Origin: Candidatus Gracilibacteria bacterium
GTDB taxonomy: Bacteria > Patescibacteriota > Gracilibacteria > BD1-5 > UBA6164
Direction of reading: 5' to 3'
DNA: 64,000 bases
NCBI GenBank assembly: GCA_010119145.1
Contig: JAACSU010000008.1
Coordinates: 124,001-188,000 of the forward strand
This document shows positions 2,433-60,591 of the stretch, in pieces (position 1 is the first letter of the stretch; each line of letters opens with the position of its first letter). The position numbers and the translations under genes are program-made. Below the pieces are notes generated by a model. The model was not told the origin of the DNA, did not search any database, and was given only the letters and a program-made list of their open reading frames with translations.

Positions 2433-4565
2433 TTAATCTTCATCAGGAAGTTTGAATCCTCTATCTTCTCGAACTTTTAGTGCGATTGCTGTTGGAACTT
2501 CTTCGTAATGATCAAATTCCATAGCGTACGTTGCTCTCCCTTGAGAAGCTGAACGAAGCTCTGTAGAGTACCCGAACATTTCAGAAAGTGGAACATAACA
2601 TGTAATGATTTTAGCCATTCCTCTATTCCCCATATCTTCGATTCGACCTCTCTTTGAATTGATTTGTCCAATAACATCACCCATATATTCTTCTGGAGTG
2701 TTTACTTCAACTTTCATAACCGGTTCTAAAAGAACAGCTTGAGCTTTTCTACAAGCTTCTCTAAATGCTTTAGAAGCAGCTATTTTAAATGAAAGTTCTG
2801 ATGAATCTACATCATGGTATGAACCAAATGTAAGAGTCGCTTTCACGTCAACAATTGGATATCAAGCCAAATAACCTCGAGCATATGCTTCTTTCAGACC
2901 TTTTTCAACACCAGGTATATATTCTTTTGGAATTGTACCACCAACAATTTTATTCACGAATTTATTCACTTTCTTAACTCCTCCTTCATCATCTTCTTCA
3001 GCAGTAAGGTATGGTTCAAATGTCATCACAACGTGACCATATTGACCTCGTCCACCAGTTTGTTTTGAATATTTATGTTCAACATCTTTTGCAATGTTCT
3101 TGATTGTTTCTCTATAGGCAACTTGAGGAGCTCAAACATTAGCTTCTACTTTAAATTCTCTTTTCATTCTATCAACAATAATATCAAGATGAAGTTCACC
3201 CATACCTGATATAATCGTTTGACCTGTTTCTTCGTCTGTTCGTACTCGAAAAGATGGATCTTCTTCTGCGAGCTTAGAAAGTGCCATACCCATTTTTTCT
3301 TGATCAGCCTTAGTTTTTGGTTCGACTGATATAGAGATTACTGGTTCTGGAAATTCCATTGACTCAACAAGGAATTTTTTATTCATATCACAGAGTGTAT
3401 CACCTGTTTTTGTAGCCTTAAGACCAATAACGGCTCCGATATGACCAGCTTGAATTTCTGGTACTTCCTCTCGTGAGTTTGAATGCATTTGAACGAGTCG
3501 ACCAACTCTTTCTTTTTCACCTGAAGTAGCATTATAAACATATGAACCTGATTTTAGTACACCAGCATATACTCGTACATATGTGAGTCTTCCCACAAAT
3601 GGATCAGTAGCTACTTTGAACGCGAGAGCCGCGAGTGGAGAAGAAATATCAACCTTAATTTCTTCTGTTTTTTCAATATCATCAACGTCAGATACTACGA
3701 GTATTCCATCATTTACATCAAGTGGACCAGGAAGATACTCAACAGCAGCATCAATAACCATTTGTACACCAATATTTTGAAGAGCGGAACCACACGTTAC
3801 TGCGTAGAGATCATTATTACAAACCCCTTTTCGAAGACCTCTTTTAATTTCTTCAATAGTTAGATCACCTTCAGAAAAATATTTATCCATAAGTGTTTCA
3901 TCCTGTTCTGCTACTTTTTCAATAAGCTCAAGTCGAAGTGCATCAACTTTATCTTTTAGATCAGCTGGAACATCTCCTTCAGTAACGTTTTCTCATGAAC
4001 TTCCTTCAAAATGATACGCTTTCATTTCAATGATATCAATGATACCTTCAAATGTTTCAGCAGCACCAATAGGATATTGAATCGCAACTACTTTATTTCA
4101 AGCAAGTCTCTTTTTAATTGATTCAACTGACATATCAAAATCACCACCCATTTTGTCCATTTTGTTTACAAATGCGATTCTAGGTACATGATATTTATCT
4201 GCTTGTTTCCAAACAGTTTCTGATTGTGGTTCAACTCCCTGAGATGCATCAAAAACTGCAACTCCACCATCAAGAACTCGAAGAGATCTCTCAACCTCAA
4301 TCGTGAAATCAACGTGACCTGGAGTATCAATAATGTTAATTTGATGATCCTTCCAGAAAGCTGTTGTAGCAGCAGAAGTAATAGTGATACCTCTTTCTTT
4401 TTCTTGTTCCATCCAGTCCATAGTTCCAGCTCCATCATGAGTTTCACCAATTTTATGAATTTTACCAGTATAGAAAAGTATACGTTCAGTTGTGGTAGTT
4501 TTACCAGCATCAATATGGGCAATAATACCGATATTTCTTACCTTTTTTAAAGGAGTTTGAGCCAT
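2433..4565 (-). CDS. fusA: Elongation factor G
   Basis: EF-G is the translocation GTPase. The 710-aa product has the G domain with AHIDAGKT (P-loop, about residues 17-24), DTPGHVDF and NKMDKMGGD, followed by domains II-V, including [18 protein letters not shown] in domain III and a C-terminal domain ending GFKLPDED. The length is normal for bacterial EF-G. A few in-frame TGA codons split it under the standard code, for instance just below 4098 and 3132. Most of its glycines use GGA/GGT, as in the other highly expressed genes here. It is not next to rpsL, rpsG or tuf, unlike the usual str operon. A terminator follows; no Shine-Dalgarno precedes the ATG. Confidence 0.97.
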
Positions 4566-14788: not shown

Positions 14789-16066
14789 ATGAAATTTTTA
14801 ATTTTTCTCTTATGAATTATTTTTTATTTCATATTTTTTTTGTTTTCACTAGAAAAACAAAATGCATACAACTCAATCCTATGAAGTCTTTTTATAGAAG
14901 CTCATATATATATAGCCACATCACTAATATTTGTTTTCTTTTTATTCGTATCCTCTAGATCAAATAAAGAAATTGCACCTCGAGATTCGGAAATTGAATC
15001 GTCATACAGATTTGATGTTTCTAAAAAAGATATATATGTTTTTGTTAAAATATTTTTCACTCGAATTGTTTATATTTTAGCAATATTACTATTCTACGTA
15101 TGAATTTGACTCATTTTTCAAGTCCTTCTTTGAAGCTTTCAACTACCTATCATATTTTTACTCTTTAATATACTTGTTTTAGGTCTTTTCTTCGTAGAAC
15201 ATAAATTTATAGTATTTCAAGATTTTTTGAGAATTAATACTGGTATTATTTCAGTATATTATATTTTTCTCCATATATTTTATATATTAGGCTGAACTAT
15301 TACACTCTCATTTTTTGATGTTCTAAATATAATTTTGTTATTTGTCCTATTTTTTTTCTTTCTTAAAACAGAAAGAAAAAGTCAGTATAAATATCTCATG
15401 CAAAGTTATGTAATTGCTTTTGTATTTCTGGAAGTACTCGTTACTTTGAAATATTTCTTTTCATTTCAAGCAAGTCTATATGCAATAACGAGCTTAGTTT
15501 TCACATTGATATTTTTTATAAATCCAAGAGAACTTTATAAATATTTTAAAATTCAAATATTTTTAAGTAGAATTTGGGGAATTATTTTTTCTTATTTTTT
15601 CCTTATATTTTTAAGCATTTCTCTATTTAATATTAATTTTGTAGTGCTATTACTCTCTCTCAGTTCATTTATTTTGTGATACATACTTTTAGAATTTCAT
15701 AAAAAATTTCAAAATTATATCAGTCTTTTTTGAGCGAGTTATTGATATTTTATTTGAATGTTTTGAATATTTCTTGCTCTTTGAAAATGAGATTTTGTAC
15801 AAAATTACACCACTATTTTTCTCTATATTATTTCTGTAGTGTACTTAGTTTTTGATATGCTACGTAAAGATTCTCATATTTTTGATAGTTATTTTTTTCA
15901 TGTTTTCTCTTTGCTTGTCAATCTTAGTTGTGTCATTTCTTTCTTCTTTTTTATAGATTTTTCTATACTGAGTGTAGCGCTCTTTCTCATAGGAGAATCT
16001 CTCTATTTTTTCTACTCTTATTTTTCAATTCGTAAAACAGCTAAAAAATGATTCACTATCTCTTAA
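14789..16066 (+). CDS. Polytopic membrane protein of unknown function, 425 aa
   Basis: Almost the whole 425-aa sequence is hydrophobic, with roughly ten to twelve membrane segments rich in Phe, Ile and Leu. Short charged loops occur, such as SSRSNKEIAPRDSEIESS (about residues 65-82), KTERKSQYK and the cytoplasmic-type tail SIRKTAKKGFTIS. No transporter signature (Walker box, MFS or EamA motif) can be seen. TGA glycines occur within the membrane segments. The last codons overlap the start of pepA (ATG 16048), so translation of the two is likely coupled. Function unknown. Confidence 0.75.
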
Positions 16067-17448
16067 AATCTCAAGATATCTCAACTTGAAATATTGTTTG
16101 TGTCTTAAATAACGAAAATCAGTTACAGGTTTTAGATTTTTTAGGATTACAAGATACGATTGTAAAAGATATTAAAAAACATCTCAAGAAAAAAGAGTCT
16201 ATAAATCTTGAATATTTTTTAGGTGGAAGAAAATATTCTAAACTATTTATTCTAATAGATTTAGAACAAAGTTCTCATAGCAGCGTTTTGTTTCTTTGAA
16301 AACATTTTCCTAAACTTCCAGATGCTCTTTCATTAATCCTGCCAGAGTCTCAAAATATTGTTGATATAGTAGAGTTAGCTCTCTTGTCTCGCTACAGTTT
16401 TCAAAATTATCTATCTAAAAAAACACCTAAAGTTTTAGAGCTTGTAAGCACTATTGAACAAAAGAAAGTTTTACAAAATTCTGAGGAGAAAGTAAAAAAT
16501 ATTTTTTTAGCTAGAGACTTATGAGAGACTCCAGCTCATGACCTCACTCCAGAAATCTTTGCATGAATTGTGAAAAAAAATAAATTTAATCATATAAAAG
16601 TAAAAGTATTAACATACAAAGATATTCAAAAAAAATGATTAGGTTTAATCGAGTGAGTATGAAAATGAAGTGTAAACAAACCATACATGGTCATATTAGA
16701 ACACATTAGAAATAAAAAAAATCCAATTACTGGAATTATCGGAAAATGAGTCACGTATGATACCTGATGAAACCAAATAAAGCCATGAGACTTTATGTAT
16801 GATATGAAAGGAGATATGTGAGGAGCTGCAGTAGTGTATAGTCTTATGAAAGAGATAGACAGACAGTATAGTGACAAAAACTTTGTAGCATGTCTTATGC
16901 TGGCAGAAAACGTTGTTTCTAGTAATGCCTATAAACCATCTGATATTCTAAAATGATATACGGGAAAAACAGTAGAAATTATACACACTGATGCTGAGTG
17001 AAGGCTGGTCTTAGCAGATGGAATATCGTATATAGGAAAGAATTATAAAACTCAAAAAATGATTTCTATCGCAACTCTTACCTGAGCTTGTATGGTAGCA
17101 CTCTGATATAGATATGCCTGAGTAATGGGCACAGATGAAGAATTAATCTCGCAAATAATTGAATACTCAAAAACGAACTGTGAAAAATATATACAACTCC
17201 CTTTCGACGATTATTTTGTAGAAAAAACAAAATCAAAAATTGCCGATTTTAATAATCTGGAGAGATCAGTTCATGCTGGAAGCTCTATGGGTGCAGCATT
17301 TTTATATAATTTTTTAGAAAATAAAGAAAGTTACACACACATAGATATAGCTGGAGCCTATATAAATGAGTGAGAAGCATACGGTAAAATGCCAAAATGA
17401 ATGACAGGATTTTGAGTTGAAAGCCTTTCAACAATACTTTTAAAATAA
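16048..17448 (+). CDS. pepA: Leucyl aminopeptidase, M17 family
   Basis: A cytosolic dimetal aminopeptidase. The 466-aa product has a variable N-terminal domain (1-150) and the M17 catalytic domain with PAHDLTPEIFA, GKGVTYDTGG (about residues 232-241, counterpart of GKGITFDSGG) and TDAEGRLVLADGISY (about 314-328), which supply the metal ligands and catalytic Arg. The usual NTDAEGR reads HTDAEGR here. The end is INEGEAYGKMPKGMTGFGVESL, typical of the family. More than a dozen glycines are TGA, including several in the active-site region. It overlaps both the upstream membrane protein and the downstream comF (TAATG), so it is translationally coupled. It probably helps recover amino acids from peptides, fitting a host-dependent life. 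Confidence 0.95.
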
Positions 17449-18273: not shown

Positions 18274-21117
18274 ATGTCAAAATTTCTCGAACTCAAATGA
18301 GCTAGAACCCATAATCTTAAAAATATTGATGTAAAAATCCCTAAAAATACCATGACGGTTATTACTGGTCTTTCTGGGTCTGGAAAATCTTCACTCGCAT
18401 TTTCAACTATTTATGCAATCGGGCAGCAAAAGTACCTAGAGAGTCTTTCAAGCTACGCACGTATGTTCGTGTGAAATAATAAGGATGAAGCTCTCTATGA
18501 TGAAATTATTGGCCTCTCACCGACTATTTCTATTGACCAAAAGACTACAAACAGAAATCCAAGAAGTACTGTTGGAACTATTACAGAAGTATATGATTAT
18601 TATAAGCTCTTATTTCTCAATATTTGAGATCGTAAATGTGTGAATTGTGGACACAAAATTCAGAAAGATTCTATGAAGGACATCATAGAATATATTTCAA
18701 AGTTTGACCTTGAAACGAAATATTATCTTACTGCCCCAATCCTTAGGAACATCGATTGACTCACAGTTGAAAAAATTAAAAAAGAGATACTGGATGCTTG
18801 ATTTATAAGATTTTTACTAAACGAGAAAGAATATAATGTCAATAATGAATTTGAACTCCCGAAATGAAAAATTTCAATTCAAATCATGGTTGATAGACTT
18901 GTGGTAAAAGACTATTCTACTAATACTAGTTCTGACACGAAAAGGCTAAAAGACAGTATAGATGTAGCATATAAAGTAGGAGATGGACAACTTACTGTAT
19001 ATCTTCTTGATCAAGAAGATACTGAGAAGCGAGACTTCTCACAAGTTTTTGTGTGTTCACATTGTTGACATATTCCTGAAAAACTCAGTATTTCTTCATT
19101 TAGTTTCAATTCACATCATGGAGCATGTCCTGAATGTCATGGACTTTGAGAAAAAATGGTCTTTTTAGAAGAGAGTATTGTAAATCCAAGACTGAGTCTT
19201 GCAGAAGGAGCTATTTTACCTCCTGGATTTTGAAATTATTTTGAAGCATTGATTCAAGAAGTGGGGAAAAAACATAAAATAAGAACTAATGTTCCATATT
19301 CTGAACTTAGTGATGAAGAGAGAAAAAAAGTAATGTATGGAACCTGAAGTGGACAATTCACTGTAAATTTTGTCAGTGAACAATGAAAAAGAAATACGTA
19401 TAATTCAAAATTTGAAGGGGTTATTAATACACTTATGAGAAGATATTATGATGGTTGAGTAGAAAGTGGAAATTATGACGATTATGTCACTAATGTTAAT
19501 TGTCCAACGTGTGATGGGTATCGTCTTGCGAAAGAATCACTCAGTGTATTTATTGATGGAATACATATTGGACAATTAACGGATTATAATATCCAAGATA
19601 CTCAAACTTTTTTTAAATGATTAAATCTATCTTCAGAACAACAAAAAATAGTTGAAAAAGTGAAAAAAAATATATTAGAGAGATTAGAGTTTTTAGAAGG
19701 AGTAGGACTTTGATATATGACGCTTTCTCGTAGGTCAAATACTCTTTCTGGTTGAGAAGCTCAAAGAATTCGACTGGCAACTCAAATTTGAGTGAAATTA
19801 GAAGGTATTATTTATGTTTTGGATGAACCATCAATTTGACTTCATCCAAGAGATAATGATATGCTAATAAAAAATCTAAAAAAACTTAGGGATGTTTGAA
19901 ATACGCTTATAATTGTCGAACATGATGAGGATATTATGCGAGAAAGTGACTATATTATAGACGTTTGACCTGGAGCTTGAATTCATGGATGAAATATTGT
20001 AGCTACTTGAAACTTTGAAGAGATTTGCAACAATCCAAATTCAGTAACTTGACCATATTTAAGTGGAAGAAAACAAGTTGAGATAGAAAAAAAAGAAAGA
20101 ACTATTAAAAAATTTCTAAGTATAAAGTGAGCTTCTCACCATAACCTTAAAAACATAGATGTAGATTTTCCAATTTGAAACCTGAGTGTTGTAACGTGAG
20201 TTTCTGGTTCATGAAAATCAAGTCTAATAAATGATATATTAGCTAATTATCTTGCAAATACACTCAATAGAGCCTCTAAAACAGTTGGAAAATTTGAGTC
20301 TATTACGTGAACTGAAAATTTTGATAAGGTACTTGTTATAGATCAATCCCCTATTTGAAAAACTCCACGTTCAAATCCTGCTACCTATACGTGAGTATTT
20401 ACATTTATTCGTGAAGTTTTCGCTTCAAGTTATGACTCAAAACTCAGATGATATGCACCTGGTAGATTTTCTTTCAATACACGAGATGGTCGATGTCCAG
20501 AATGTGATGGTGATGGTGTCAAAAAAATAGAGATGCATTTTCTTCCTCCTGTTTATACAACATGTGAATCTTGTGATGGAAAGAGATTTAATCCTGAAAC
20601 TCTTGAAATTAAATATAAATGAAAGACTATTGCAGACATACTTGAGATGACTGTAGAGGAAGCGTTTGATTTTTTTCACGCTCATCCAAGAATAGTGAAG
20701 ATACTGTGAGTCTTGAATCAAGTTGGACTTGGTTATATTGGACTTGGACAATCGTCAACAACCCTTTCAGGTTGAGAAGCTCAAAGAATTAAGCTTGCCA
20801 GTGAGTTATCAAAACGATCTACCTCTAAGACTATTTATATATTAGATGAACCTACAACGGGACTACATTTTCAAGATATACAAAAACTTCTTAAAATTTT
20901 AGAGTCTTTAGTAGACAAATGAAACACTGTTATTGTCATCGAACATAATATGAATGTTATTATTAATGCTGATTATATCATTGATATTGGACCAAATGGA
21001 TGAGATAGTGGTGGACAATTAGTTGGGATGTGAAGTGTACAAGAAATCAAGAATAATCCTGAAAGTTTTACAGGTCAGGCAATCAAAAAATATGAGCAAC
21101 ATTTTAAAAAATGATAA
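18274..21117 (+). CDS. uvrA: Excinuclease ABC subunit A
   Basis: UvrA is the damage-sensing ATPase of nucleotide excision repair. The 947-aa product has two ABC modules: Walker [10 protein letters not shown] (about residues 31-39) and GVSGSGKSS (about 642), two signatures LSGGEAQRI (about 490 and 830), and the zinc-finger pairs CSHC...CPEC and CPEC...CESC. In both signatures the second Gly is encoded by TGA, strong evidence for the reassignment. LDEPSIGLHPRDND and [13 protein letters not shown] are the Walker B regions. More than 30 glycines use TGA. Length is normal. It overlaps murB at TAATG. Confidence 0.97.
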
Positions 21118-21995
21118 TGGATATTTTACAAAAAAACGTAGACATAACAGAATTATCAAATTATAAAACTCCAGCTATTACTGAATATTTTTTTGAAATT
21201 AATTCTGAAGAAGATATAGACAATATCTTTAATATTTATAAGTGGGCATCAAAAAAAGATATTCCAGTCTTAATAGTGAGTTGAGGTACTAATATGTTGT
21301 TTGCTTTTGATATATATCCATGAGTTATAATCAAAAATAATCTCTCTTGATGGACATATAATACAGAAACTAAAATACTAGAAACTTATTCTCAAGAGCT
21401 TATTTGGACAATAGCATTTGAGCTAGAGGATAGGTATAATCAAGACTTGTGGCATAGATTTATAGGACTTCCCTGAACGGTATGATGAGCAATATATTGA
21501 AATGCTTGATGTTTTTGACTTGAGACTGAAAATAATTTTTTAGATTGTAGACTTATAAATCTAAAAACTTGAGAAAAGTTGATACTTCAAAAAGAAGAAA
21601 TGAACTTTGAGTATAGAGATTCTCTCTTAAAGCAGGAGAAGATATATTTTATAATAGATGCGAGATTTGATCTCTCACAAAAAATTGAAAAATATCATAG
21701 TGATGTCGATAATATAGATTTTAGAGACAATAAACAACCAAAATGAAATAGCTGTTGAAGTTTTTTCAAAAATCCTAATAAAGAAATTTCAGCTGGAGCA
21801 TTGATCGAAAAAGTTTGATTGAAATGATATGCAATTTGAGGTGCATATTACTCTCAACAACATGCAAATTTTCTTATGCATGATGGACATGGTACATATA
21901 AAGATTTGATTCAACTTATTGAACTTGCACAAAAAAGAGTTTTCGAATCAACAGGGATCCAGTTAGTAAATGAAGTACAAATAATAACAATATAG
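21117..21995 (+). CDS. murB: UDP-N-acetylenolpyruvoylglucosamine reductase
   Basis: MurB makes UDP-MurNAc with FAD and NADPH. The 292-aa product has the FAD-binding region VSGGTNMLFAFDI, the conserved FIGLPGTVGGAIYGNAG (about residues 118-134) and the catalytic serine in SCGSFFKNP (about 212-220). It ends ...GIQLVNEVQII with the conserved Glu. The TGA codons fall at highly conserved glycines of GTVGGA. Its presence shows that the organism makes at least part of its own peptidoglycan precursor. The start overlaps the uvrA stop. Confidence 0.95.
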
Positions 21996-31123: not shown

Positions 31124-34100
31124 ATGAGTACTTTTGCTAAAAAAGTTACTTCAGCTGTTGCTGGTCTTGCTATAGTTTTTTCTATAGTTTCACCTCTTGC
31201 TGGAGTTTCTGCTGCTTACACTTCTGTTGAAGCAGCAAATAAGCTTTCAACTCTCGGTGTGATTGTTGACCAATCTGCTAATCCTACGGAATACAGACTT
31301 GGTGATAATCTCCTAAGAAGAGAAGGTGTTAAGGTGATGATGAATATTTCATCTATCGCTGTTGTTGATAATTGTGAAGGTAAGTTCAACGACCTATCTG
31401 CTACTGACTGGGCATGTAAATATGCTGAAACAGCTCTAGCTAATGGTTTAGTTGCTGCTAACCCTTCTTTCTCTCCAGATAGACTTCTTTCTAAGATTGA
31501 AGCTCTTAAAATGGTATTTCAAGGAAGAGACCTTGAAAGAGAAGAAAACGCTGACTTTAGAGTTGGTTATGTAAATTCTGCTGTTAATATGGGTATTGCT
31601 ACTGAAGCATTTACTGATTATGATACTGCAGTAACTAGAGGACAACTATTCGTATGGGCTGCTAACGCAATCGATGCTGATGAAGAAGTTGTTGTAGAAG
31701 ATGATCTTCTTTGTGCTATTCTTGGTACATGTGAAGATGACACTACTGTAGATCCAGTTGATCCAACTGAACCTACTACTCCAACTACTCCTACTGTTAA
31801 CGGTGAATTAGAGATTACTCTTTCTCCTATGACTCCTGCTGCTGCTACTATTCCTGGTGGAGTTGCTGGTCTTAGAGTTGTTGCATATGATGTAACTGCT
31901 GGAGCTGATGATGTAACTATCAATCAAGTATCTATTAGAAGATCAGGACTTTCTGATCAAGATACTATTGAACAAATTGCTATCTTTACAGATGCTGGAA
32001 GAGTTTCAAACGCTCGATCAGATAATCAAGATAACGACACTACTGCTCAAATCAACCTTTCAAACGGTGGACTTGTAGTTATGGCTGGTGAAACAGTTAC
32101 TATGTACGCTGTTGTTGATGTTGCATCTGTAGTTCGTGCAGCTAATGACCAATTCTTTCTTACTTTAGTAGATGTTAAGTCTAACTCTACTGATTTAGAA
32201 CTTACTGGTAACCTTACAAGTAATAAATTTACTGTAGGTTCAATCGATGCTCCTTTAATTACTATTAAAAATGGAGGTTCAGTTTCTAATCCTAACTTAG
32301 GAGAAGATAACGCTGATATCTTTGAATTTGAAATCGAAGGTGCTTCTGATGAAGATATTATTCTACAATCTATCACTTTTGAAGCTGATGGAGACGCAGA
32401 AGATGATCTTATGAATTTTGAACTTCTTATGGGTGGTAAAGTTATAGCTACTCAAGAAATGATGAGTGGTGATTACCTTACATTCAATATCGACGGTGGA
32501 CTTAGAATCCAAGAAGATAAAAATGAAGATTTCATTGTTCGAGCTGACGTTGTAGACGGAGCTGCTGATGTTATTAGATTTAGAATAGATGAAAGACTTG
32601 ACGTACGAGCTGATTCTACTAAATTTGGTTTCGGTGCTACTTCTAATATAACTGCAGTTGATACTTTTGGTGAACTTAATGAAATCACTATTCAAGCTGG
32701 TGAACTTACTTTTGTTGAAATCGACGCTGATTTTGATGAAGTGAGAGAAGATAAAGATAACGTAGTTCTTGGTTCAATCCGAGTTACTAACCTATCTAGT
32801 CAAGCTCTTGAATTAGCTGATTTTGGTGTTGATATTTCACTTGATAATGGTGGTTTATCTGCTCTAGGTGCTACGGCAACTGGTTCTCTTACTGGTACTC
32901 TTACTGTTACTGAACTTCTTACTGATGTTGAACTATTTAATGAAGAAACAGGTTCTTCTTATACATTAGATGCTAATCCTACTAAAGCTGTTCTTTCAGG
33001 TAATGATTCTACTGCTCTCTACTCTGATAACAATATCGATGCTGTAATTCCTGCTGGAGTTTCAACTTGGTCTATTAGAGCTGATACTGCAAAAGATATT
33101 AGAAACTTTGATGCTTCTTCTATTGATATGTCAGTAGACGTTGTTGCTAATGTTAGAGTTAATGAAACTGCTGACGATGAAAGAGTAACTGATATTACTC
33201 CTTCTACTCTATCTTTCAATTCTATTGATGGATCTGAATCAGGTGCTAAAATTTCAGCTATTCCTCTTTCTGACACTACTGTTGTTCGAGGTGCTACTGA
33301 TGTTAGAGTACTTGAATTTGAACTAGAAGCTGAAGAAGTTTCTGCTATTACAGTTGATCAATTAACTGTTCAAGTAACTGGTACTGGTACTAGTGCTGTT
33401 TCTAGACAAGAAGTTTCTAATGTTAAATTATATAAAGGTTCAGAAGCTACTGGTAACCTACTAGATAGCGAATCTCAAATTGGTACGAACGGTGCTGTAA
33501 CATTTAGATCATTTACTGGTTGAGATGTTATGATTGCTGCTAACGCTACTCAAAAATTTGTAGTAACTGTTTCATTTGTTGATTCAGTTGACGCTGTAAA
33601 TAAAAGTAACTATCTTACTTCTCTTACTTCTATCTCTATAGAAGATGATGAAAATGATGATGTTATTGTTTCTAATCTTCCATTAAACTCTGGAAGAGAC
33701 GTTGCTGTTACTAATGCTGGAACTATTCAAACTCTTGCATTTGACCCAGCTAACGCTGATAACGAATTTGATAAATTAGCTCTTGCTGGAAACTCTAAAG
33801 TAATCGTTTCATACGATGTTAGAGCTGACAACGAAGCTGTTGAAGTTCAAGAAGTAACTTTTGATATTTCTAATGCTACTGCTGATTTAAATAAATCAGT
33901 TGTAAACGCTACACTTCTTCTTGATGGTGTTGCTATTGCTACTAACAGAAATTCTGAAATTACTCAAAACGAAATCAGATTTACTGATGTTGCTAACCTA
34001 GTTATTCCTAGAACAACTAGTGAACTTGCTCTACAATTAAACACTGCTACAATCGGTGAAGACTTTGTAGGGAAAGAACAAAACAATCTTACTGTTACTA

Positions 34101-34642
34101 GAGTAACTCTTGCTGACTTAGAAGGTCAACAATCAGGAAAAACTATTTCTGATGTTTCTTCTGCTGTTACTAACTCTAGACAACTTTCTATAGTTAGAGC
34201 TGTTGTTACTCCTGCTGTTGTTTCTACTTTCAGTACAAATGATCAAACTTCTGAACTACGACTTGTTGTAGAAGGTGGAATGAACACTTCTGATAATGGA
34301 AACGCTGTACAAGCTGAATTAACACAACTTAAGATAGAAGTATCTTCTGTTACAGGTACTGGTTGAGATCTTGTTGTATTTAATGGTAATGGTACTCAAG
34401 TTGGTACTGTTGCAATTGCTACTGCTTGAACTTATACTGTTGCTATAGATGATCCTAATGTATCAACTCCTAATGGTGATTCAATCGGTACTAACAATGA
34501 AGTTTACCGACTTGAAACTACTGTTAATGCTACATACAGACTTGCTAAAGATGGAGTAACTTACTCTGTTAATGGTAATGGATCTACTAGTACAAAACTT
34601 CAAACTACTCTTCTTCTTGGACAATACGTTAGAAATAACTAG
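31124..34642 (+). CDS. Surface-layer-type protein with SLH-like N-terminus, 1172 aa
   Basis: A large secreted protein, probably the main surface-layer or coat protein. It has a signal peptide (MSTFAKKVTSAVAGLAIV, cleavage near GVSA-AYT). An SLH-like region (about residues 32-195) carries repeated pairs such as LGVIVDQS...LLRREGVKVMM, NGLVAANPSFSPDRLLSKIE and MGIATEAFTDYDTAVTRGQ. A Pro/Thr linker lies around 205-225 (PVDPTEPTTPTTP), and about 950 residues of beta-rich Ala/Thr/Asp/Val sequence follow. I chose ATG 31124 over an upstream in-frame ATG at 31085 because it begins the signal peptide. Codon use is strongly biased (GCT, ACT, GAA), and only three glycines are TGA (33521, 34364, 34427), as expected for a very highly expressed gene. 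A strong terminator follows. Confidence 0.85.
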
Positions 34643-35495: not shown

Positions 35496-38400
35496 CTATC
35501 TTTTGAGTCGAATCTTTTTTCTCTCTTCGAGAGTTTTTCACTGCAAAAGTCGCAGAACATATTCTATAAATATTTTATCATTTTCAAAAAGTTTTGTTGG
35601 GCTTCTGAGTCTTGTTGCGTCAGTGACTTGAAATTTTACAGCAGTATCTCTGTTGAGAAATTTCTTCATAGCAGTGAGGTTTCATGTGCTTTGGAAATCG
35701 ATTTGATAATTAATTCATACTCTTTTTATATTTTCGATACAATATTCTCTCGCTAATACTTGTGTCTCTAATAGAATAAATAAATTTTCAGTTTGTGTAT
35801 CTACGACTCAATCCTCATTATTCTGGAAAAAACTTTGTTTTAAATACTCTAAATCATCTATGTCTTCTATTTGTTCTATTTCTCTGTAAAAATGCAATTT
35901 ATCTGTTTCTGAGAGAAAGAAGTTGTCATGTATTCAGGCAGACAACATTAAGTCTATTTGACAGTTTTTCACTTTTTTAATCGTATTTTCGGCTTCGTTT
36001 TTAATGTCTTCTATCTTTTCTTCAAGCATTTTAAGGAATAAAGACACTCAAATCTCTTGCGCTTGTCCACTTTGTTTCACTCACAGTATATCTCATCCTC
36101 ATCGTATTTCAAGGTCCTTCATAGCCAATTCAAATCATGCTCAGAGATAACTATAGTCGACAATAGTTTTAATACGTTTTGCAGCTTCTCCATCGATAGA
36201 ATCTTTATGATACAGGAGATAACAGTATCATTGTGCATCAGATCGTCATACTCTCCCTCGAAGCTGGTGTATTTGAGAGATTCAAAAACTCTGACATTCA
36301 TTGATAAATATTGTATTTACATTTGAGAAATCTATTCCATTTTCTATTACCGTAGTAGACAATAAAATATCGTATTTTTTATTTTTAAAATCTAGGATTC
36401 GATCTTCCAGTTCGTCTCACGGAAGTTGTCCATGTGTAATTATAACTTTTCTTTTTGGGAAGAGAGCTTCAAGTTGTTTTTTATACACTTCAATATTAGA
36501 AACTCTATTATGGACAAAAAATATTTGTCATCATCTTTTAAACTCTTGTTCTCAGGCATCTTTTATAATCTTTTCATTGTATCGAGTTACAAATGTTTCT
36601 ATACTCTTTCTCCCCTTTGGTGGTGTTTTGAGGAGTGATATATCTCTGACTCAAGAAAGAGCAAGATTCAAACTTCTGGGTATTGGAGTCGCTGAGAGTG
36701 AGAGAATATCGATATCTGATTTAATATTTTTTATTTTCTCTTTATCTACCACCCCAAACTTATGTTCTTCATCCACAATCATTAGCCCAAGTTTTTTCCA
36801 CTTCAGTTTATCTCAAAGTAGCCTGTGAGTTCCTATTACCATATCGATACTTCCTGATTGAAGTCATTTTAAAACTTGAGTTGCATGAGCTTGACTCTGA
36901 AGTCGAGTAAGAACTTCTACAGTATAAGGAGTATTTTTAAATCTTTCTATTGCTTTGTTGTAATGTTCATGAGCCAGAACGACGAGGGGAGAAATAAGAA
37001 CTACCTGTTTGCGATTTTGGAGTGCGAGAATTGCAGCATTAAATGCTATTTCAGTCTTTCCAAATCACACATCACCAACGATGAGTCGATCCATATTTTT
37101 AGTACTCTGCATATCAGAAAAAATGTCATCAATTGCATTTGCTTGGTCAGGAGTATAGGTATAGGGAAATTCACTTTGAAAAGCTTCAATCTTATCTTGG
37201 TTTAATATATTTTGATTTCAGCTACGAAATTTACGCTCAGCAAAATTTTTAAGGAGTTCCTCTGCTATTTCTCGTATATCTTCGTGTATTTTTTTCATTT
37301 TTCGTTCCCACACTTTTCCACTGAGAGGAGTAATACTTGGATTCTCTTTTCAGACATATTTACTGAGTCTATGAACCTCAGTGATTGGAACAAATAGTTT
37401 ATCTTGATCTTTGTATTGAATTTCTAAGTATTCTTTTTGTATTTCTCAGAGTACTTTTTTAATAATTCCGTTAAATACTCAAATTCAATGGTCAATATGT
37501 ACGACAAAATCTCATTTTTGTATTTTGAGCAATAAGTCTATATCTGCTGAGAGCTTCTTTTTAAGTCTTTTTCTGATAAATATTTTTTGAATAATATCGT
37601 CAGATATATAACTTCTATTATTATTTTTTTGAGCTGAAATCTTTTCAAAACTTGAGAATCCAGTATGTTTTATAGCTACTACTTCAGCAACAGAAAGAGA
37701 ATTATCTTTGAGATATTCTTCTATCATTTTTGTATATCTCGAATATATGGAGATAGATCAAGGATTTTGCTCTATATAGTTTTGAAATTCTTCTACATTT
37801 TGTATAGATATATCTCAAATTCACAGTTTTGTTTTCTTTTGTTCGAGTGATGCTAGGAGACTAATAGATGCGAATTGATATTTTTTGTGAGTAAGTTTTT
37901 CAAAAAGTGGGTGAAATTCACATCAATCAAGTACAAGGAAAATTTCATCTTGTACTAATATATCTGATAAAATAGGATTTTTAATTGTTTTTTTTCAAAT
38001 TTGATCTGGTATTTTAAATATATTTTCTAGAGAAGAAATATATACTTGCTCAACCTTATTTCAATCCACTACAATACTCTCAATTTCATCTCCCCAATAA
38101 TTTAAAAGAGTTACTTGTCCTCAAATTTGAAAAATCTTAATAATATCTCATTGTCTGAGATAACTTCACTGTTTTTCATATTCGTGATAGTCATATCATA
38201 TCTCTTGTAATCCTTCCATAAGACTTAATTGTGGGTAGGATTTTCAAGTTTGAAGTGTTATTTGTGAGTCGAATAATTTTTGATGAACTTCTTTCTTTAC
38301 ATCATCAATTGATATCCAAAAGAGTGTACTTCAAATACGCTGAGAACACGCTATGATATCTTCAGCACTTTCAAGTTCTTTGTAGCTTATACCCAAATCT

Positions 38401-38558
38401 TGGGCAAGTACTTCATATTTTTTTGAAATATCAAAGCTTGGAATTATTTGCAAAAAAGATCACTGTGTTTCAAGTGTATTTTTATAAACAAGCAGTTTTG
38501 AGAAGTATGATCCAGCTTGTGTATATTGAGTATGGGGTTTGAGAATCTCAAATGACAT
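35496..38558 (-). CDS. mfd: Transcription-repair coupling factor Mfd
   Basis: Mfd displaces stalled RNA polymerase and recruits UvrA. The 1020-aa product has a degenerate UvrB-like N-terminal part (1-330), the CarD-type RNA polymerase interaction domain (about 345-420, FVVHIDHGIGVFNGI) and a RecG-like helicase core with Walker A GDVGFGKTEIA (about 490), DEEHKFG (about 593) and LRGRVGRSDAQCYCYLLY. The C-terminal D7 region has [19 protein letters not shown]. The usual family length is about 1150 aa, so the N-terminal part is shortened. It pairs functionally with uvrA of this window. The FKBP gene follows after 28 bases. Confidence 0.94.
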
Positions 38559-42451: not shown

Positions 42452-44638
42452 TTAGCTTTCAGGAAATAAATTTCCAATTACATCACTTGGGAGATCCAAG
42501 AAAGACTTTTTATATAATTCTCATGTAGTGAGCTCTCACGACTCTATTTTTGCTATTAACTCATCTCAGTTACTAATTCATAAATTAGGTGCAACTTTAT
42601 TTAAGAATTCCATATAATAATTTCAAACTTTTCACTGTTGATCTTGGTAGAGCTTTTCTTTAATTATTAAAATTATTGATGTTGCTACAATTCACGATGT
42701 TGCTATTAAAACTGCTCTGAGAACAGGAACATTGGTAGATAATTTAATCAATAATGCAAGTCACCCTCATTCAACAGCATTTATGGCTATATATCTTAAC
42801 CATGAATCATCTATTTCATTGAATCAAGTTATACTTCAAACAACTCAGTCTATATTTCATTTTGCAGTATCTATTCATTCTAAGAAAATGTTTCTATCAA
42901 CTTCTAATATTCTCATGAAGAGTACTTGAAAAACTTTTGAATCTTCTTCTGTAGTACTGCTTAATAATTTTTCTGCGGCAGCAGACTCATATAGTCATTT
43001 AATATTTCAATCAAGTATTCAATACACCCAAGTGTAAACGAATACTTTTTCAAATCATGTAGCATTACTTAAATCTTTAGATTGCATGATTCAATAGAGA
43101 GCAATGATATTTCCCCAACTAAGTTTTTCAGAAATATAATCGTTAAATCAATTAACTCCTAGTCAATATTCATCAATCTGTGATATGATAATTTCTTTAT
43201 AATTATAAATCTTTGTAATAATTTCAATGTCTGTTTGAGATAATGAAGCGCCTTCAGCATTTAATTTATTTTGTCATCTTTCAATTATAGAATCTAAACT
43301 CTCAGTTCCATCTCCAGTGAGAATATCTTTAAACGCTAAACTTACTCCTTTAGGATATACTTCGTCACCATCAAATAAGGCTGAGATATTTTCATCCTCT
43401 AAAATATTTCAGAAAAAATTCTTAAGTTTTCACGCATATTCTCATGGGAGAGCTTGTAGAATTAGGAGTTCATTTTTCAAGCTAAAAACTGATAATCTTG
43501 CAAGTATTCAAATTCTGAGTTCTAAATAATTATAATTTGTTGATTCTATTTCTTTTAGTTCTTCTTTTGTAAAAAATAGTAGTGCATCTTCATTAAAATC
43601 TGGATTTTTTCAAATCATTAACTGTAAATCAATTGCATTAATCTGAGTCTCAAAGAATTCTTCGTTTACTGGTCAAGTTATAGCTATAACCACTCAAAGA
43701 ATTTCTTCTTCCGTAAACGTTGTTTCTTCTAATCATAAGGTTGACTTAAGGTTTGCTCACGAAGATAAATATCATCTCATAGAAATTAAGCTGACAGGAT
43801 TAGTTCTTTCATTAATCTTTCCTAAGATGTTTGAGCTTTTCTCAGTAATTGGAAGTCATGAAACTTGAGACATTAGATTGTATCATAATAATCTTGTATC
43901 GTCCTTTAGTTCAATTGAAACATTTTTTTCTATATCTCATGTTGAAATCTCTGGTAAAACGTTTCATTCCTCTTGTTGAGGAATAGAAGTTGATTGTGCT
44001 GGAATATCATCATTTGATGTGTTTGTAGTTTCTCCAATATCTCAAGTATCTCCTGATTTTATTTCTTCATATTTATCCATAAGAAATTGAGCTCCAGGGA
44101 TGAATCCAATTAGAAGTCACACAATCCATCATTGAATCGCATCTGCTTTTCATTCTACTTTGTCTTTTCAAGTTTGTATAACCCAGTCTAGGAATTTTTC
44201 AGGAATAAGTTTTCCAATAAAAGAATCTTGCATTTCTGATTTGAATTTACTTTCAGCTGCATTAATAGCCTCAAGTTTTTTTGCTTCTAATGCTTCTGAA
44301 GCTCAATCTATTCATTCTCAAACTCTCACTTTTAATTCATCTAATGATAATTCTGAAAAATTCAATCATGCCAAAATTCCTTCAGTCTTGTCAATTACTT
44401 CTGGATTTTGATTTTCTGATTGTTCTAAAAGAGTATTGAGTGCTATGATTTTTTTAGTTATATCTATTTCAGCTTTTAAGGTGACAAGATCTAAATTTGC
44501 ATCAATAGATTTAGCAAGCTCATATTTTTCTATTTGTTCTGGGGTAATTTGAGCCTCTGGAATTCCAGTGAGTTCAGCTAATTCTTGAGCTGGAGTAAGA
44601 GAAATTATGTCTGTTGTTTCATTTGTTTCAATTGCCAT
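42452..44638 (-). CDS. Hypothetical membrane-associated protein of the large locus, 728 aa
   Basis: Unrecognised. It begins MAIETNETTDIISLTPAQEL, the same MAxET opening as the 1374-aa neighbour. The product has a helical N-terminal part (1-160), a hydrophobic segment near 166-184 (GWIVGLLIGFIPGAQFL), a long soluble middle with helices (about 200-620), and a strongly hydrophobic segment near 633-660 (VPVLRAVLIATSGIVATSII) followed by a basic stretch KEKLYQ. This suggests two membrane anchors around an approximately 450-residue domain. Many TGA glycines. Sixty bases separate it from the 477-aa gene. Confidence 0.78.
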
Positions 44639-44692
44639 ATGCGTATTTTTAAAAATATTTATATAATACTATCATATATTTCTTTTTACATC

Positions 44693-44719
44693 AAAAAACC
44701 ACACAATTTAGTGTGGTTT
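44693..44719 (-). terminator. Terminator after the 186-aa gene
   Basis: A 9-bp stem (AAACCACAC 44696-44704 with GTGTGGTTT 44711-44719, 6-base loop). On the minus strand a run of six T follows. It may set the 728- and 477-aa genes as a separate or reduced transcription unit. Confidence 0.8.
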
Positions 44720-44733
44720 ACTTAATAATTATA

Positions 44734-45294
44734 TTAGAATCAAACATTTGGTTTAATTCAAGGACTGACCCATTTATCTTTCGTATTGTTATATCCTCCT
44801 TTGAAAGCTCATTTTACTCATCCCCAAGCAAATCAAGTTGCTGCTCAAGCCGCTGCTGATACTCATTGACCAGCTTTTCATAATGCCCAAAGTGGGATAT
44901 CTTTTACAGCTATAAGTCCTGCTGCTGCAAGTATATAAGGCATTGCAACAGATTGACTTGCAAGTCACGCTCATAATCAAGCAGCACTTCATGCTAGTTT
45001 TAATGCAGTTCAAATTTTTCATTCTTGTTTTGTCCATTCTGCAACTTTACTACCTAAATAATATCAAGCTGCAGTAGTAGCTACAGTTGGAAGTACTGTT
45101 CATGAAATTCATGCTGACAATCAAGTAGAAGTGAGTAATCAAGTAACTGCTTCATTCGTTACATTTGCTACTGCTGAAACGGCTCATGCTCAGAGAGCTG
45201 CTCATTGAGCTACTATTTCAGGAACTCAGTTCCTTATAGCATATGCTCAAGCTCATAGTACAGCAGCTCAACCTAGTACATGTTTTGTTTCCAT
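44734..45294 (-). CDS. Small glycine/alanine-rich hydrophobic protein, 186 aa
   Basis: A protein of 186 aa with repeated small-residue hydrophobic stretches: METKHVLGAAVLGAGAYAIRNG, GAALGAGAVSAVANV, GTVLPTVATTAAGYYLG, KLAGSAAGLGAGLASQS and ILAAAGLIAVKDIPLWALG. The Gly/Ala pattern, with most Gly encoded by TGA or GGA, resembles membrane-inserting or pore-type small proteins or holin-like helical hairpins, but no specific family is recognised. It sits between the 686- and 728-aa genes with gaps of 70 and about 95 bases. Confidence 0.72.
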
Positions 45295-45364
45295 AAAACG
45301 TTATATAAAAAGTAAATTTAAATTATATTAACATTAATATTTGTATTGTCAAATAAATTACAGT

Positions 45365-47425
45365 TTATAAAGTATTTTCTGCAATGGTTTGATAATCAGT
45401 GCTTTCAGAATCAAAATGGTTTGTTTTAAATTTTGATTGGATAAAATCTATAATTTCTTTATTTCATAACATTCATGTGAAAATTTCTAAAAATATAAAA
45501 ATTTTATCTGCCATTCCAGGTCAACTCCAGGCTTCTTTTGAGAAAAATATATCCCATTCAAATTTCAAAGTTCATTCGGGAGTTAATGCTCAAGCTTTTT
45601 TTAAAAATCATCCAAATAATCACATAAATGCAGCCGATGAAATTATTTCATATAATAATTGTAATGATGAATCCAAAGCAGCTTCTGAGTATGTGTCGTA
45701 TCACTGTCTAGAACTTACTAAACTTGTTACTCAAGTTATAAGTCATATTTTTGCACCAAGTATTGCCATTGCTACTATTCATGGAGCACTTGCTCAAGCT
45801 AGAATTATAACTCACGCAATAACTCATACTCAAAGCGTAATAACGTTTCCAGGCTCTTGAAACCAATCTTTATTTGCATCGTGCAAATCAAAAAATCCAC
45901 TATTTCAATGAATATCTTGATATAAATCAAATATTTGTGCCATTTCTCAAGTGAGATGAAAATCAGAAGAATTATTTCAAAAGAAATTTGGATGAGCTAA
46001 ATATAAGTTTAATGTCTTTCCATCAAATTCATCATTGATATCGTTTTCAAGTGCTTTAAATGCTTCTTGAGCTGTTTTTAAAATATTATTCTGTAGTGAC
46101 TCAATATCTATATTTCACCCAGCATCTTTTATATCATTTCCTATTCTATATATAGCTCATAAAGCAATTTTTTGATCAAAATTTAAATCATTATAACTCA
46201 TTGATTCTCATAATGATAGCAGTTCTCAAAATCAAGATGTAACAAGAGTTCTTTCTCATAGATTTTCTATAGTAGAATTAACTGTATCAATTTGTTTAAT
46301 TGCTTCTCTTACAATATTTAGAGGAACTTTATCCTCTATTTCTGGATCTCAAATTTCAATTTCTTTATTTTCTTGTAAAATTTTTTCAAATACTCACTCT
46401 TTTTTATACATAATATATAAGAGAGCTTTACTTGCTACATCATAACTTGCCATTGAGTTATCAAAAGATATATTCTCAGATAAATCAGTTGTGTATCAAT
46501 CTTTTTGTGAGGTATATTTTTTTTCTACTTTAAGTCTTCATGTAATTATTTCTACAAATTGAATGAAATCTCAATTCGATCTATTTTCTTTTTTTAATCT
46601 ATCAAAAGTTTGTTGGTATAATACTGACATTACTTTTGCATTTATTTGTCTTACCATATCTGACTTTCTCCAATTTCAATTTATCTTTTCATTAAATTGT
46701 CGTATTTCTAAAAAAATTTCTTCCGTACTCAATCAAGCTATAAGTTCTTCTACTTTTAATTGAATATCTCATTCTTTGAGAGAAAAAATTCTTGCTCCTC
46801 ATTCATACTTATCTCATATTCATCACAAGAGCTCTATTTCTTTTCTCAAAAAGTCTGTTTTCTTCTTAGTTTCTCCTAAAATATTATACACATTATTAAG
46901 CTTTTGAGATTCTGGTTTTAATAATGCATGTAATTCTAAGAGCGTTTTTCACTCATATTCTCAATCATTAACTCTGTCATTTTCATCAATTTCACCATCA
47001 AATATTATTGAGTCATTATCATCATAAATTGACTCGATAGCATCTTGTAAATCATTAACTTTCTTTTCTACCTGTAAAACAGTTTCTCATTCGAGTAAAT
47101 TGTTAATTAAAAAATTTTTATAATCTGATAATTGAAATGTTAGATTCGATCAATCAAGAAAGTAAATCTTTCATGTATTTGTATGTTGTTCTAAGGCAAT
47201 AATATGATCTTTTGATTTGTTATTTTCTTCAAAAGATTGTAATAAAAAATTCTGGAATAGAAACCTATTTGAGTCAGTTATCAAATAAAATTCACTAAAT
47301 AAATTGCTAGTATAATCTAATGTTAGTCCTTCTTCGATAATATCATTTTCAAGAATTGTATATCAAAAAGACTCAAGAATTTCTTCTCAAGTATTTTCAT
47401 AGCCAATAGTTTCAAATTTACTCAT
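45365..47425 (-). CDS. Hypothetical membrane protein of the large locus, 686 aa
   Basis: Unrecognised. The N-terminal 500 residues are acidic and helical (FETIGYENTGEEILESFGYT at the start; later YIMYKKEGVFEKILQENKE). A hydrophobic hairpin is predicted near 525-570 (NVITLGVGVIAGVIILAGAS... AMAILGAKIGLITGVTSL), followed by an Ala/Gly-rich hydrophobic stretch near 600-620 (AAFMGLFGGFL). It ends SDYQTIAENTL-like. TGA glycines are very frequent. Its ATG begins directly after the stop of the 1374-aa gene (no gap), so the two are translationally coupled. Confidence 0.78.
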
Positions 47426-50400
47426 TTATCTTCAAAATTTATCAATTGCATCTAAGATTGCTGTTTTCACAGATGGTTCTGCTGTTCTAACTGCAAGGAC
47501 AAGATCAGAATATTTCATACTTTTAAATCTCGCAAATCTTTCTTCAGCAGGAATTTGGTCAATTACAGCAGTATATTTGGAACTATTAAAATTAGGAAGT
47601 TTTTCAGGGAATACTGATACTTGTAACAATTGAGCCTTGCAATACGTTTCAAAATCTCGAATATTTCATATATCTTCTCTAAATTTTGAATCAAAAGCAG
47701 CAGAATATATTTCTTCAACTTTTTGTATTGCATCATCATTTTGACTCATTAATACACTTGGATATATATCATTAAGATATTTGATAAAATCTCAAGCTGA
47801 TGGTACACTATCTTTTGATTCTATTACGCTTGTTCTATCAATAGGATTACTTTTAGTTTCATCTACTGTTGTTCTTATAACAGAGAGAGTATTATTTCTT
47901 TCATCAACAAATTCCTGTATAAGGTCTTCAAACTCAACTGAAGTTCTTGTAATTTTTTCGTCTTTTATAAATGCATCTAATCTATTTTTTAAACTTCAAA
48001 CTTCTGATGAATCTTGAGCAGTTTTTACTTCTTCAATAATAGATCTTATTTCGCCTTGTTGTCTTGATATATTTGTAGCAGTTTCAGATAATCAATCTAG
48101 ATTTTTTAAATCTGTTTTAATTTGATCAGGAAGAATAGTTATATCAATTTCAGAATTTCTTATAAATTCTAAAGTTTGTCTTGCTTTTAATTCATCATAG
48201 TCTGAGCTAGATACATTGGCTATCCTAGAATATTCTTTATTGAGTCTATCCATTGAGTCTATTTTAAACTCTTCATCTGGGGATATACTAGCATCACTTG
48301 TAATTTTTTGTAAATCAGATTTTATACTAGAAAAGTCTTCTCCATTGAAAATTCTTTCTAAAACTTGTTTTGCTTGTCATGAAGTGTATCGGTTTTTTAA
48401 TTCTTTTGCGAAATCTTTTAATTTTGCTTCTAAATCAAAATCTTTATCTTGAATAGAATAGATAACTTTAAATCTATCTAAATCACTTTTATACGTTTTT
48501 AAAATTGCTTCCTGAAATTTATTTAGATTATATTCTATATCATAACTTAATCACGTTAGCCTTTCTTTGTAGTCATATTCATGATAATTCTCTAACTGTT
48601 CCAGAGAAGTAACAAATGTTCTCTTATCCGTATCAGAAAATTCATTTATTTCTACTTGTCAAACTGATAAATTTCAAGATTCAATTAATTTTAAATCTCA
48701 TTGTGTAATATTAAGTTTTCATTTTCTTGCATGTTCTTGAAGTTCTAATGCATATTTTTTAATAGCATCACTCATTCAATCTTTGTCTTGTATCTTTTGT
48801 AATTCTGTTATTGCTTGATGAGTTGGAATAAATCATTTTTTTATTTTTTCCACCTCTCTAAAAAATTCATTTTCACTAGGTATAATTTTTTTATCTTCAA
48901 TGTCTTTTAAATACTTTCGAAGTTTTTCTCATATTTTTTCTTCTTCTATATCTGAAATAGTATATGATATATAGTTTCTAATCGCTTGGATTGGATTATA
49001 CATCTTTCAATTTACTTCAATTCATTGTGAGATGATTCTTAAAATTTTTGGATTATTTTTTCAAATTGTTTCAGATCTTTTAATCATATCTTCAAAATCT
49101 TTTTGAGTGATTTCAGGTGAAAATCTTTTTAATTGATTTAGTTCTGGTGTTGAAATTCAATACCTACTGAAAAATCAAGTAAAAAAATCTCATACTAATG
49201 CTTTTTTTCTTCAAACGTACACTTCTTGTAACTCCAAATTTCAGTTATCGACTTTATCAAAAATTGTTTGCAAATCTTTTTCATTTCCTTCCCAGTTATT
49301 GTTTGAAACAATTTGTGAAAAACTATAGAGCATTGATGTTTTTTTTGTCAGAGCAGGTGGTGCATTTTTTCACCAAATCTCAGAAATAGATCTCCAACGT
49401 TCTGCTCTCCATTCTGCCCAGCTTCTTCTTTCAGGTTTTTTAGATAAATGAGGATATAACTCTCCTAATTTTTTATCTATTTTTGATTGAACATCTTCTG
49501 TAGATAGATAACCTCTTTCAATAATATTATACAATTCTAACTTTACAATTTGTCATCAGATTGGATTATTTCTTACTCTTTCAACAAGATTATCAACTTT
49601 CTTTATTCTACTAGCTTTTTCATCTTCTGATAGGTCTGTTCTTGAGGTAATATAACTCTTTAGATTATCAATTTCTGAAGAAAATTTAGGATTTCAAACA
49701 ATCTTAAGTGCTTTTGTTTTTTCATCAACTTCTATAGAAAAATCTCAATCAAATAAAAATTCTAATCATTTTTTGAGCTCTTCTCTTCAACTTTTGTCTA
49801 GATTAAAATGTTGAGTGGCATTATCTCGCAAATGTCTTCAAAAAATATTAGGTCAACCTACTAATGCATTGATTCATCTTCTTGGAAAATAATGATTTTT
49901 ATCGAGAGACCAAGCCTTTAACCAAAAAGTTTTGGTATTTATATTGAGATATGATTTAACCTTTCATAACTCTTCTTCAAAAGCTGGTCTTTTACTTGGT
50001 TCAATAGTTTTTAAAGTTTCTTCTAGTTTTTGTATAGCTCTTACTCTTTGTATATACTCATTTCTTAATTCCGCATCATTAGAATCAGCCAAATAAACAT
50101 CATCAATATTATAATCAGGAATTCTTAAAATTCTTCTTCTTACACTTTGATTTCATTCTGTCAATTCCATAGTATCTCACGCAAACGGAAGCAATGAAAA
50201 ATTTTTAATTCTGGCTTCATTTACTCCTCTTCTTGCTAATGTATCTAATAAAACTCTTCTATAAATAGTTTCAGCATAGTTTACAGTTGCTGCTATTGCT
50301 AGGAAATAGGTAATGAATCAATAGGTGTTGTTAAAAATTGATTCTCAAGAAAATATTCAATCCTCAGGCTCGGTTTCAATATCAAATAATGGATTATGAT

Positions 50401-51550: not shown

Positions 51551-51556
51551 AATTTA

Positions 51557-59391: not shown

Positions 59392-60591
59392 ATGGCTTTT
59401 GATAGATCTAAACCACATATGAATATTGGTACTATTGGTCACGTAGATCATGGTAAAACTACTACTACAGCAGGTATTTCTGCAGTACTTTATAATAAGT
59501 ACGGAGGAGGTGAAGGTCTGAGAGACTTTTCTTCTATTGATAATGCTCCTGAAGAAAGAGCAAGAGGTATTACTATCAATACTTCTCACGTAGAATATGA
59601 AACTGCTAATAGACATTACGCTCACGTAGATTGTCCAGGACATGCCGATTATGTTAAGAACATGATTACAGGTGCTGCTCAAATGGATGCAGCTATCCTA
59701 ATCTGTGCTGCAACAGACGGGCCTATGGCTCAAACAAGAGAACATATCCTACTTTCAAGACAAGTATGAGTTCCTTACATCGTAGTTTTCCTCAATAAAT
59801 GTGATATGATGGGAGGTGATGATGAAATGACTGATCTTGTTGAAATGGAAATAAGAGACCTTCTTTCTAAGTATGATTTTCCAGGAGATGATACTCCAGT
59901 TATTAGAGGTTCAGGACTTGTTGCTCTTGAAAATCCTACTGATATGGAAAAAGAATTTGGTGCTAAAACAATTATCGAATTGTTTGAAGAAATTGAAAAA
60001 TTTGTACCAGTTCCAGAAAGAGATCTTGAAAAACCTTTTCTTATGCCTGTTGAGGATGTATTCTCTATTAAAGGTCGAGGTACTGTAGTAACTGGTAAAA
60101 TTGAGCAATGAGTTATCAATGTTGGTGATTCTATTGAAATAGTTGGTATCAGAGATACAAAATCAACTACGGTTACTGGAGTTGAAATGTTTCATAAACA
60201 ATTAGAAAGAGGTGAAGCTGGTGATAACGCTGGTCTTCTTATTAGAGGTATTGAAAGAGATGACGTTGAAAGAGGTCAAGTTCTAGCAAAACCTAAATCA
60301 ATTACTCCACATACTCAATTTGAGGCTGAAGTATATGTACTTTCAAAAGATGAAGGTGGTCGACATACTCCTTTCTTCAAAGGGTATAAACCACAATTCT
60401 ATTTCAGAACGACTGATGTTACTGGTGACATCGAACTTCCTGCTGGAGTTGAAATGGTTATGCCTGGTGATAACATCCAAATGACTGTAGATCTTCAAGT
60501 ACCTATTGCTATGACTGAAGGACTAAGATTCGCAATCCGAGAAGGAGGACGAACTGTTGGTTCTGGAGTTGTTGCTAAAATTATCAAGTAG
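59392..60591 (+). CDS. tuf: Elongation factor Tu
   Basis: EF-Tu delivers aminoacyl-tRNA to the ribosome. The 399-aa product has [19 protein letters not shown] (residues 11-29), [20 protein letters not shown], then domains II and III with [12 protein letters not shown] and the end [16 protein letters not shown]. The Gly in [15 protein letters not shown], one of the most conserved in EF-Tu, is encoded by TGA at 59767; a second TGA (60109) is the Gly after KIEQ. Only 2 of about 42 glycines use TGA. The start lacks a Shine-Dalgarno. A 70-base spacer precedes it. Confidence 0.98.

Follow-up and report, generated by a model that had tools for sequence, protein, structure and literature searches.

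Depletion of the reassigned UGA glycine codon in highly expressed genes of a Candidatus Gracilibacteria bacterium

Why is TGA nearly absent from a large surface-protein gene of a bacterium in which it is the commonest glycine codon? The question is raised by a stretch of 64,000 nucleotides, hereafter the window, from a Candidatus Gracilibacteria bacterium (assembly GCA_010119145.1, contig JAACSU010000008.1, positions 124,001 to 188,000). It corresponds to G000:C8:124001-188000 in our numbering and belongs to a 1.28 Mb genome of 37 contigs that is 97% complete. Translation of the window with code 25 (UGA = Gly) gives long open reading frames (ORFs) on both strands. The S-layer/surface protein gene (window positions 31124..34642, + strand) starts with ATG at 31124 and encodes 1172 residues, with a signal-peptide-like N-terminus and an S-layer homology (SLH) domain (PF00395, residues 87-127) whose score of 21.6 bits is barely over the Pfam cut-off of 20.8. 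Its 84 glycine codons comprise 56 GGT, 24 GGA, 1 GGG and three in-frame TGA, at Gly800 (33521..33523), Gly1081 (34364..34366) and Gly1102 (34427..34429), all on the + strand.

TGA use and expression in this genome and its relatives

Codon statistics were collected over the entire contig C8 and C7:1-360000, which represent 46% of the genome and in which a simple code-25 gene caller delimited 495 genes. In this sample TGA is the commonest glycine codon, with 43% of 11,658. The binomial chance of finding as few TGA as in the surface gene (3/84) is 2e-16 against this mean. The genes of EF-Tu (59392..60591, +; 2/42, 3e-8) and EF-G (2433..4565, -; 4/61, 3e-10) are also poor in TGA. The low-expression contrast is provided by uvrA (18274..21117, +; 38/86), and by pepA, encoding an M17 aminopeptidase (16048..17448, +; 21/38), murB (21111..21995, +; 15/22) and mfd (35496..38558, -; 41/62), the reciprocal best hit of E. 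coli mfd. An earlier note on this DNA, which did not include EF-G, had described merely three TGA in the surface gene and two among about 42 glycines in EF-Tu, more than 30 in uvrA and an abundance of them in pepA, murB and mfd; our counts agree with each of these statements. The bias of the surface gene to GCT, ACT and GAA, also described there, was recovered as 87% of alanine, 83% of threonine and 99% of glutamate codons, compared with sampled means of 45%, 42% and 78%, and the gene is extreme in GTT, CAA and GGT as well. The SLH region of the surface gene itself has no TGA among 11 glycines, while four short SLH paralogues of the same genome have 5/13, 6/12, 14/17 and 2/10. S-layer orthologues throughout the genus contain 0-3 TGA each. 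Judged by its TGA use, the SLH surface protein is predicted to be among the most highly expressed of this bacterium.

In order to relate TGA use to expression, we used two proxies. The genome's own codon adaptation index (CAI), trained on ribosomal proteins with glycine codons excluded, correlates weakly with the TGA fraction (raw rho -0.16), since accessory genes that are AT-rich and high in TGA mimic the bias to A/T-ending codons. Its use as sole proxy was therefore dropped, and since these accessory genes also receive high own CAI, we adopted an outside measure, the CAI of E. coli K-12 orthologues (168 E. coli genes, of which 84 have reciprocal best hits here). The TGA fraction decreases steeply with this measure (rho -0.69, n=80, p 2e-12), also when ribosomal proteins are left out (rho -0.66, n=53), and amounts to 15%, 31%, 41%, 43% and 63% in successive classes of decreasing E. 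coli CAI. With G+C at third codon positions (GC3), G+C at first and second positions (GC12) and gene length controlled, the partial rho is -0.45 for E. coli CAI and -0.44 for the own CAI. The per-gene comparison of TGA/(TGA+GGN) with expression or codon adaptation proposed in the earlier note, run here on the 495 sampled genes, thus gives negative correlations. No other codon distinguishes high from low expression as strongly as TGA (15% versus 44%, odds ratio (OR) 0.23, p 2e-42); GGT, which increases with expression, comes next. The set of low-TGA genes consists mostly of core machinery, namely ribosomal proteins, elongation factors, DnaK, RNA polymerase and ATP synthase, and in the S10/spc cluster TGA encodes 31 of the 224 glycines (14%) of 16 ribosomal-protein genes. 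Neighbouring genes on the same strand have similar TGA fractions (rho 0.47-0.54), as expected for operons. Ordinary genes show no clear change in TGA use along their length, such as a 5' ramp would produce.

We then considered 30 genomes from the same genus, family and order, whose GC content ranges over the order from 22 to 54%. The closest named match of EF-Tu in the public collection, which may omit the nearest records, is a metagenome-assembled genome of Candidatus Gracilibacteria. TGA is rarer in the high-expression set, mostly ribosomal proteins, than in other genes (OR <1) in 22 of the 23 testable genomes, significantly so (p<0.05) in 21. The baseline is set by genomic GC: across species it correlates with the TGA fraction of other genes with a rho of -0.92, and this fraction is about 3-16% at 40% GC or more and about 70-85% at 25% GC or less. 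In the AT-rich relatives, of which G017, G009 and G012 are the AT-richest, ribosomal proteins use TGA for 60-74% of glycines, and the usual order of increasing TGA is S-layer, EF-Tu, ribosomal proteins and other genes, the four values not being available in every genome. The TGA shares of the full-length S-layer homologue, EF-Tu, the high-expression set and other genes are 0.24, 0.62, 0.69 and 0.85 in G017, 0.11, 0.39, 0.62 and 0.76 in G012, and 0.10, 0.41, 0.67 and 0.78 in G023. This graded series looks like a dose response. Depletion of TGA is graded with the expression proxies, depends neither on composition nor on site conservation, and recurs across the order; translational selection against UGA is well supported.

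The UGA decoder and release factors

tRNA loci were obtained from Rfam tRNA-family searches and anticodons were assigned with ARAGORN. The initial search returned neither a UCA nor a GCC glycine tRNA in this genome, G012 or G017. Absence of a UGA decoder was rejected when a glycine-acceptor pattern located the tRNA-Gly(UCA) gene, which scores 44.5 bits on direct scan; a search with the anticodon-loop pattern TTCAAA gave nothing convincing. This single-copy gene (G000:C9:69795-69873, 79 nt, GCG...CGC-U-CCA) presents the identity elements G1:C72, C2:G71, G3:C70 and U73. Near-identical genes are found in 26 relatives, one per genome, and are almost invariant over 22-54% GC. Covariation supports the cloverleaf, with an anticodon stem of six pairs and a D-loop devoid of GG. 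One tRNA-Gly(UCC) gene lies on the main contigs, and a second UCC gene, without CCA, on a very small contig. The most expressed genes prefer GGT, and no tRNA-Gly(GCC) was found on the main contigs of this genome; GCC-like 3' ends are missing from the genomes of this family and present in other f2/f3 genomes, tRNA-Gly(GCC) having been read in G018. GGU is presumably read by wobble by tRNA-Gly(UCC). None of 21 genomes has a match to the release factor 2 (RF2) model TIGR00020 over its cut-off, while all 10 bacterial controls pass; the matches below the cut-off, at most one per genome, are presumably release factor 1. Competition by RF2 termination at UGA is therefore unlikely.

The searches also brought up tRNA-like RNAs in G000 (C7:441193-441283, -, 91 nt), G017 (C8:46982-47120, -, 139 nt) and G018 (C4:106306-106476, -, 171 nt), with normal acceptor, D and T arms and a long hairpin or insert in place of the anticodon arm. 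Those of G000 and G017 adjoin SLH genes. The G000 copy was discarded as a decoder, as the acceptor (C1:G72, A73) does not have the identity of a glycine tRNA and no clear anticodon loop is visible. These RNAs with an enlarged anticodon arm could be small RNAs or intron-bearing tRNAs.

Probable poor decoding of UGA and its alternatives

The explanation that we consider very probable is that UGA, although it serves fully as a glycine codon, is inferior in translation and selected against in heavily translated genes, likely through poor decoding by tRNA-Gly(UCA). AT-biased mutation would convert GGA into TGA by a G-to-T change, making TGA the commonest glycine codon overall, and in often-translated genes selection would exchange TGA for GGT or GGA. 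Reading of UGA would hang on the one gene for a divergent tRNA-Gly(UCA), whose decoding is probably slower, scarcer or less accurate than that of GGN by tRNA-Gly(UCC). The earlier note had proposed that UGA decoding is slower or scarcer than GGN decoding: the fall of TGA with expression stands, but slowness or scarcity is not singled out by it, as lower accuracy predicts the same pattern. The weak step may lie in a poorer tRNA body, in low abundance, in wobble modification or in accuracy.

Several observations weigh against this explanation. Expression level is deduced from orthologues, and GC12 has an effect of its own on TGA. In G016, the ribosomal-protein set is not depleted (OR 1.24, p 0.2), while the S-layer gene is (5/94). 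The genes of tRNA-Gly(UCA) and of the chromosomal tRNA-Gly(UCC) are both single copy, so that gene dosage does not account for the difference between UGA and GGN. Work by Campbell in 2013 is reported to have found that charging of the SR1 tRNA roughly equals that of tRNA-Gly(UCC), and charging is thus probably not the weak step.

Could TGA use simply follow base composition, the AT bias of a gene or region setting its TGA content and highly expressed genes being G+C-richer at first codon positions? Genome GC does predict TGA between species, as seen above, and GC12 does so within the genome (rho -0.56). However, when GC3, GC12 and length are entered in a logistic model, the expression coefficient per standard deviation is -0.57 (95% confidence interval -0.86 to -0.27) and GC3 contributes nothing; the surface gene combines a low GC3 of 0.11 with almost no TGA, and strand matters little (TGA 42-51% on either strand). 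Composition is accordingly an improbable cause of the expression trend. About as improbable is a historical origin, in which slow-evolving abundant proteins keep ancestral GGN codons while TGA marks newer glycines of fast-evolving proteins. Within genes, TGA is indeed slightly rarer at conserved than at non-conserved glycines (Mantel-Haenszel OR 0.81, p 0.052). Yet the GGA to TGA change is synonymous in code 25, so protein conservation raises no barrier to it, and at the glycines shared with E. coli orthologues, which include 358 TGA codons (109+82+167), the TGA share climbs from 14% through 28% to 42% as expression decreases (rho -0.66, n=72). The same trend at these shared positions means that the effect does not oppose old to new glycines, which largely refutes the historical account; TGA encodes 21 of 54 P-loop glycines in lower-CAI genes, and the high TGA of ribosomal proteins in AT-rich relatives also contradicts it. 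Least probable of all is recent arrival of the low-TGA genes from donors using the standard code. It may well apply to some genes with high GC3 and low CAI: a Na+/H+ antiporter gene (C8:10986-12227; TGA 1/43, CAI 0.48, GC3 0.33) is a probable recent transfer, and the genes of a ribonucleotide reductase (C8:41593-43263; 3/40) and a DJ-1/PfpI protein (C7:193626-194144; 0/10) are candidates. But most low-TGA genes belong to the core machinery, and the S-layer gene shows the extreme codon bias of its host and the same scarcity of TGA in its orthologues of the genus.

Poor decoding of UGA could itself take the form of inaccuracy rather than slowness, UGA being misread, for instance as tryptophan, or sometimes terminating translation, at greatest cost in abundant proteins. 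This variant of the main explanation, compatible with it, is possible but not favoured. A proteomic study of a BD1-5/SN-2 bacterium found that peptides with Trp, Ala, Lys or Asp at UGA occur, though rarely (PMC4032931), U34 of tRNA-Gly(UCA) is subject to the UGG/UGA ambiguity pointed out in another report (PMC8629427), and the slight lean of conserved glycines away from TGA points the same way. However, this lean is weak beside the expression effect (OR 0.81 versus 0.23), and RF2 termination is unlikely as shown above. An accuracy component is thus possible, and small next to the expression effect. More doubtful is the idea that tRNA-Gly(UCA), divergent and nearly invariant over the order, is locked in a poorly decoding state: its U34 must read UGA yet avoid wobble to UGG (Trp), and accuracy would be paid for by slow decoding, so that UGA would stay non-optimal despite having become the most frequent glycine codon.

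TGA as an expression gauge and comparison with known systems

The TGA fraction separates the high-CAI E. coli orthologues from all other sampled genes with an area under the curve (AUC) of 0.90, compared with 0.89 for the own CAI. The use of TGA as a proxy for expression, put forward in the earlier note, is therefore upheld in part: it is valid alongside other codon bias, since low TGA may also mark horizontal transfer. Glycine-poor genes cannot be scored, probable transfers, which combine high GC3 with low TGA and low CAI, have to be excluded, and the contrast is smaller in AT-rich relatives. From low TGA together with high CAI, four further surface genes are predicted to be highly expressed: those of a three-SLH protein (C7:338410-339462; TGA 0/61), an SLH-fasciclin protein (C7:201672-202787; 0/23), a pilin resembling those of type IV secretion systems (T4SS; C8:19268-19630; 1/16) and a DUF11 protein (C8:70506-74957; 29/144, 20%). 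Elsewhere in the window, the region 42452-55237 (-) contains large ORFs of up to 1374 residues in which TGA makes up 57-80% of glycine codons; it is perhaps a mobile or specialised cluster.

Uncultured code-25 lineages thereby gain a rough gauge of expression that needs nothing but sequence. In bacteria, a reassigned stop can outnumber every other codon of its amino acid and yet be the one most avoided in translation, and high usage does not mean optimality. TGA-dense phage genes have been suggested to be codon-optimised for these hosts (PMC10746230); our data speak against such a reading of TGA density. An order spanning 22-54% GC with a nearly unchanged tRNA-Gly(UCA) also offers a natural series for studying mutation versus selection on a reassigned codon.

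Published passages on SR1/Absconditabacteria, Gracilibacteria and BD1-5 describe code 25 as found here, with TGA read as glycine by tRNA-Gly(UCA) and RF2 lost, and treat reassignment rather than dependence on expression (PMC4032931; PMC8629427). In the portions of the open-access literature consulted, we found no account of UGA avoidance in highly expressed code-25 genes. A close likeness is the trypanosomatid Blastocrithidia, whose genome has many reassigned stops but few of them in highly expressed and cytosolic ribosomal-protein genes, where they are seen as a translational burden (PMC12153298); as here, the reassigned codon is frequent overall and scarce in highly expressed genes. Blastocrithidia is a eukaryote with UAR=Glu and UGA=Trp in which UAA is still a stop, and abundance was determined by mass spectrometry (PMC12153298). 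In contrast, the present case concerns a bacterium with UGA=Gly, in which TGA remains the most frequent codon for glycine, and the trend extends over the whole GC range of the order. Highly expressed genes also avoid reassigned stops in the oligohymenophorean ciliate PL0344 (UAA=Lys, UAG=Glu), for which the passages seen propose that the reassigned codons are translated inefficiently or that canonical codons are more strongly retained (PMC10553269). This eukaryote has multiple suppressor tRNA genes, and those passages include no control at conserved sites (PMC10553269). Ordinary translational selection in bacteria is likewise graded with expression and coherent within operons. Here, however, the most counter-selected codon is a reassigned stop and, at the same time, the commonest of its family.
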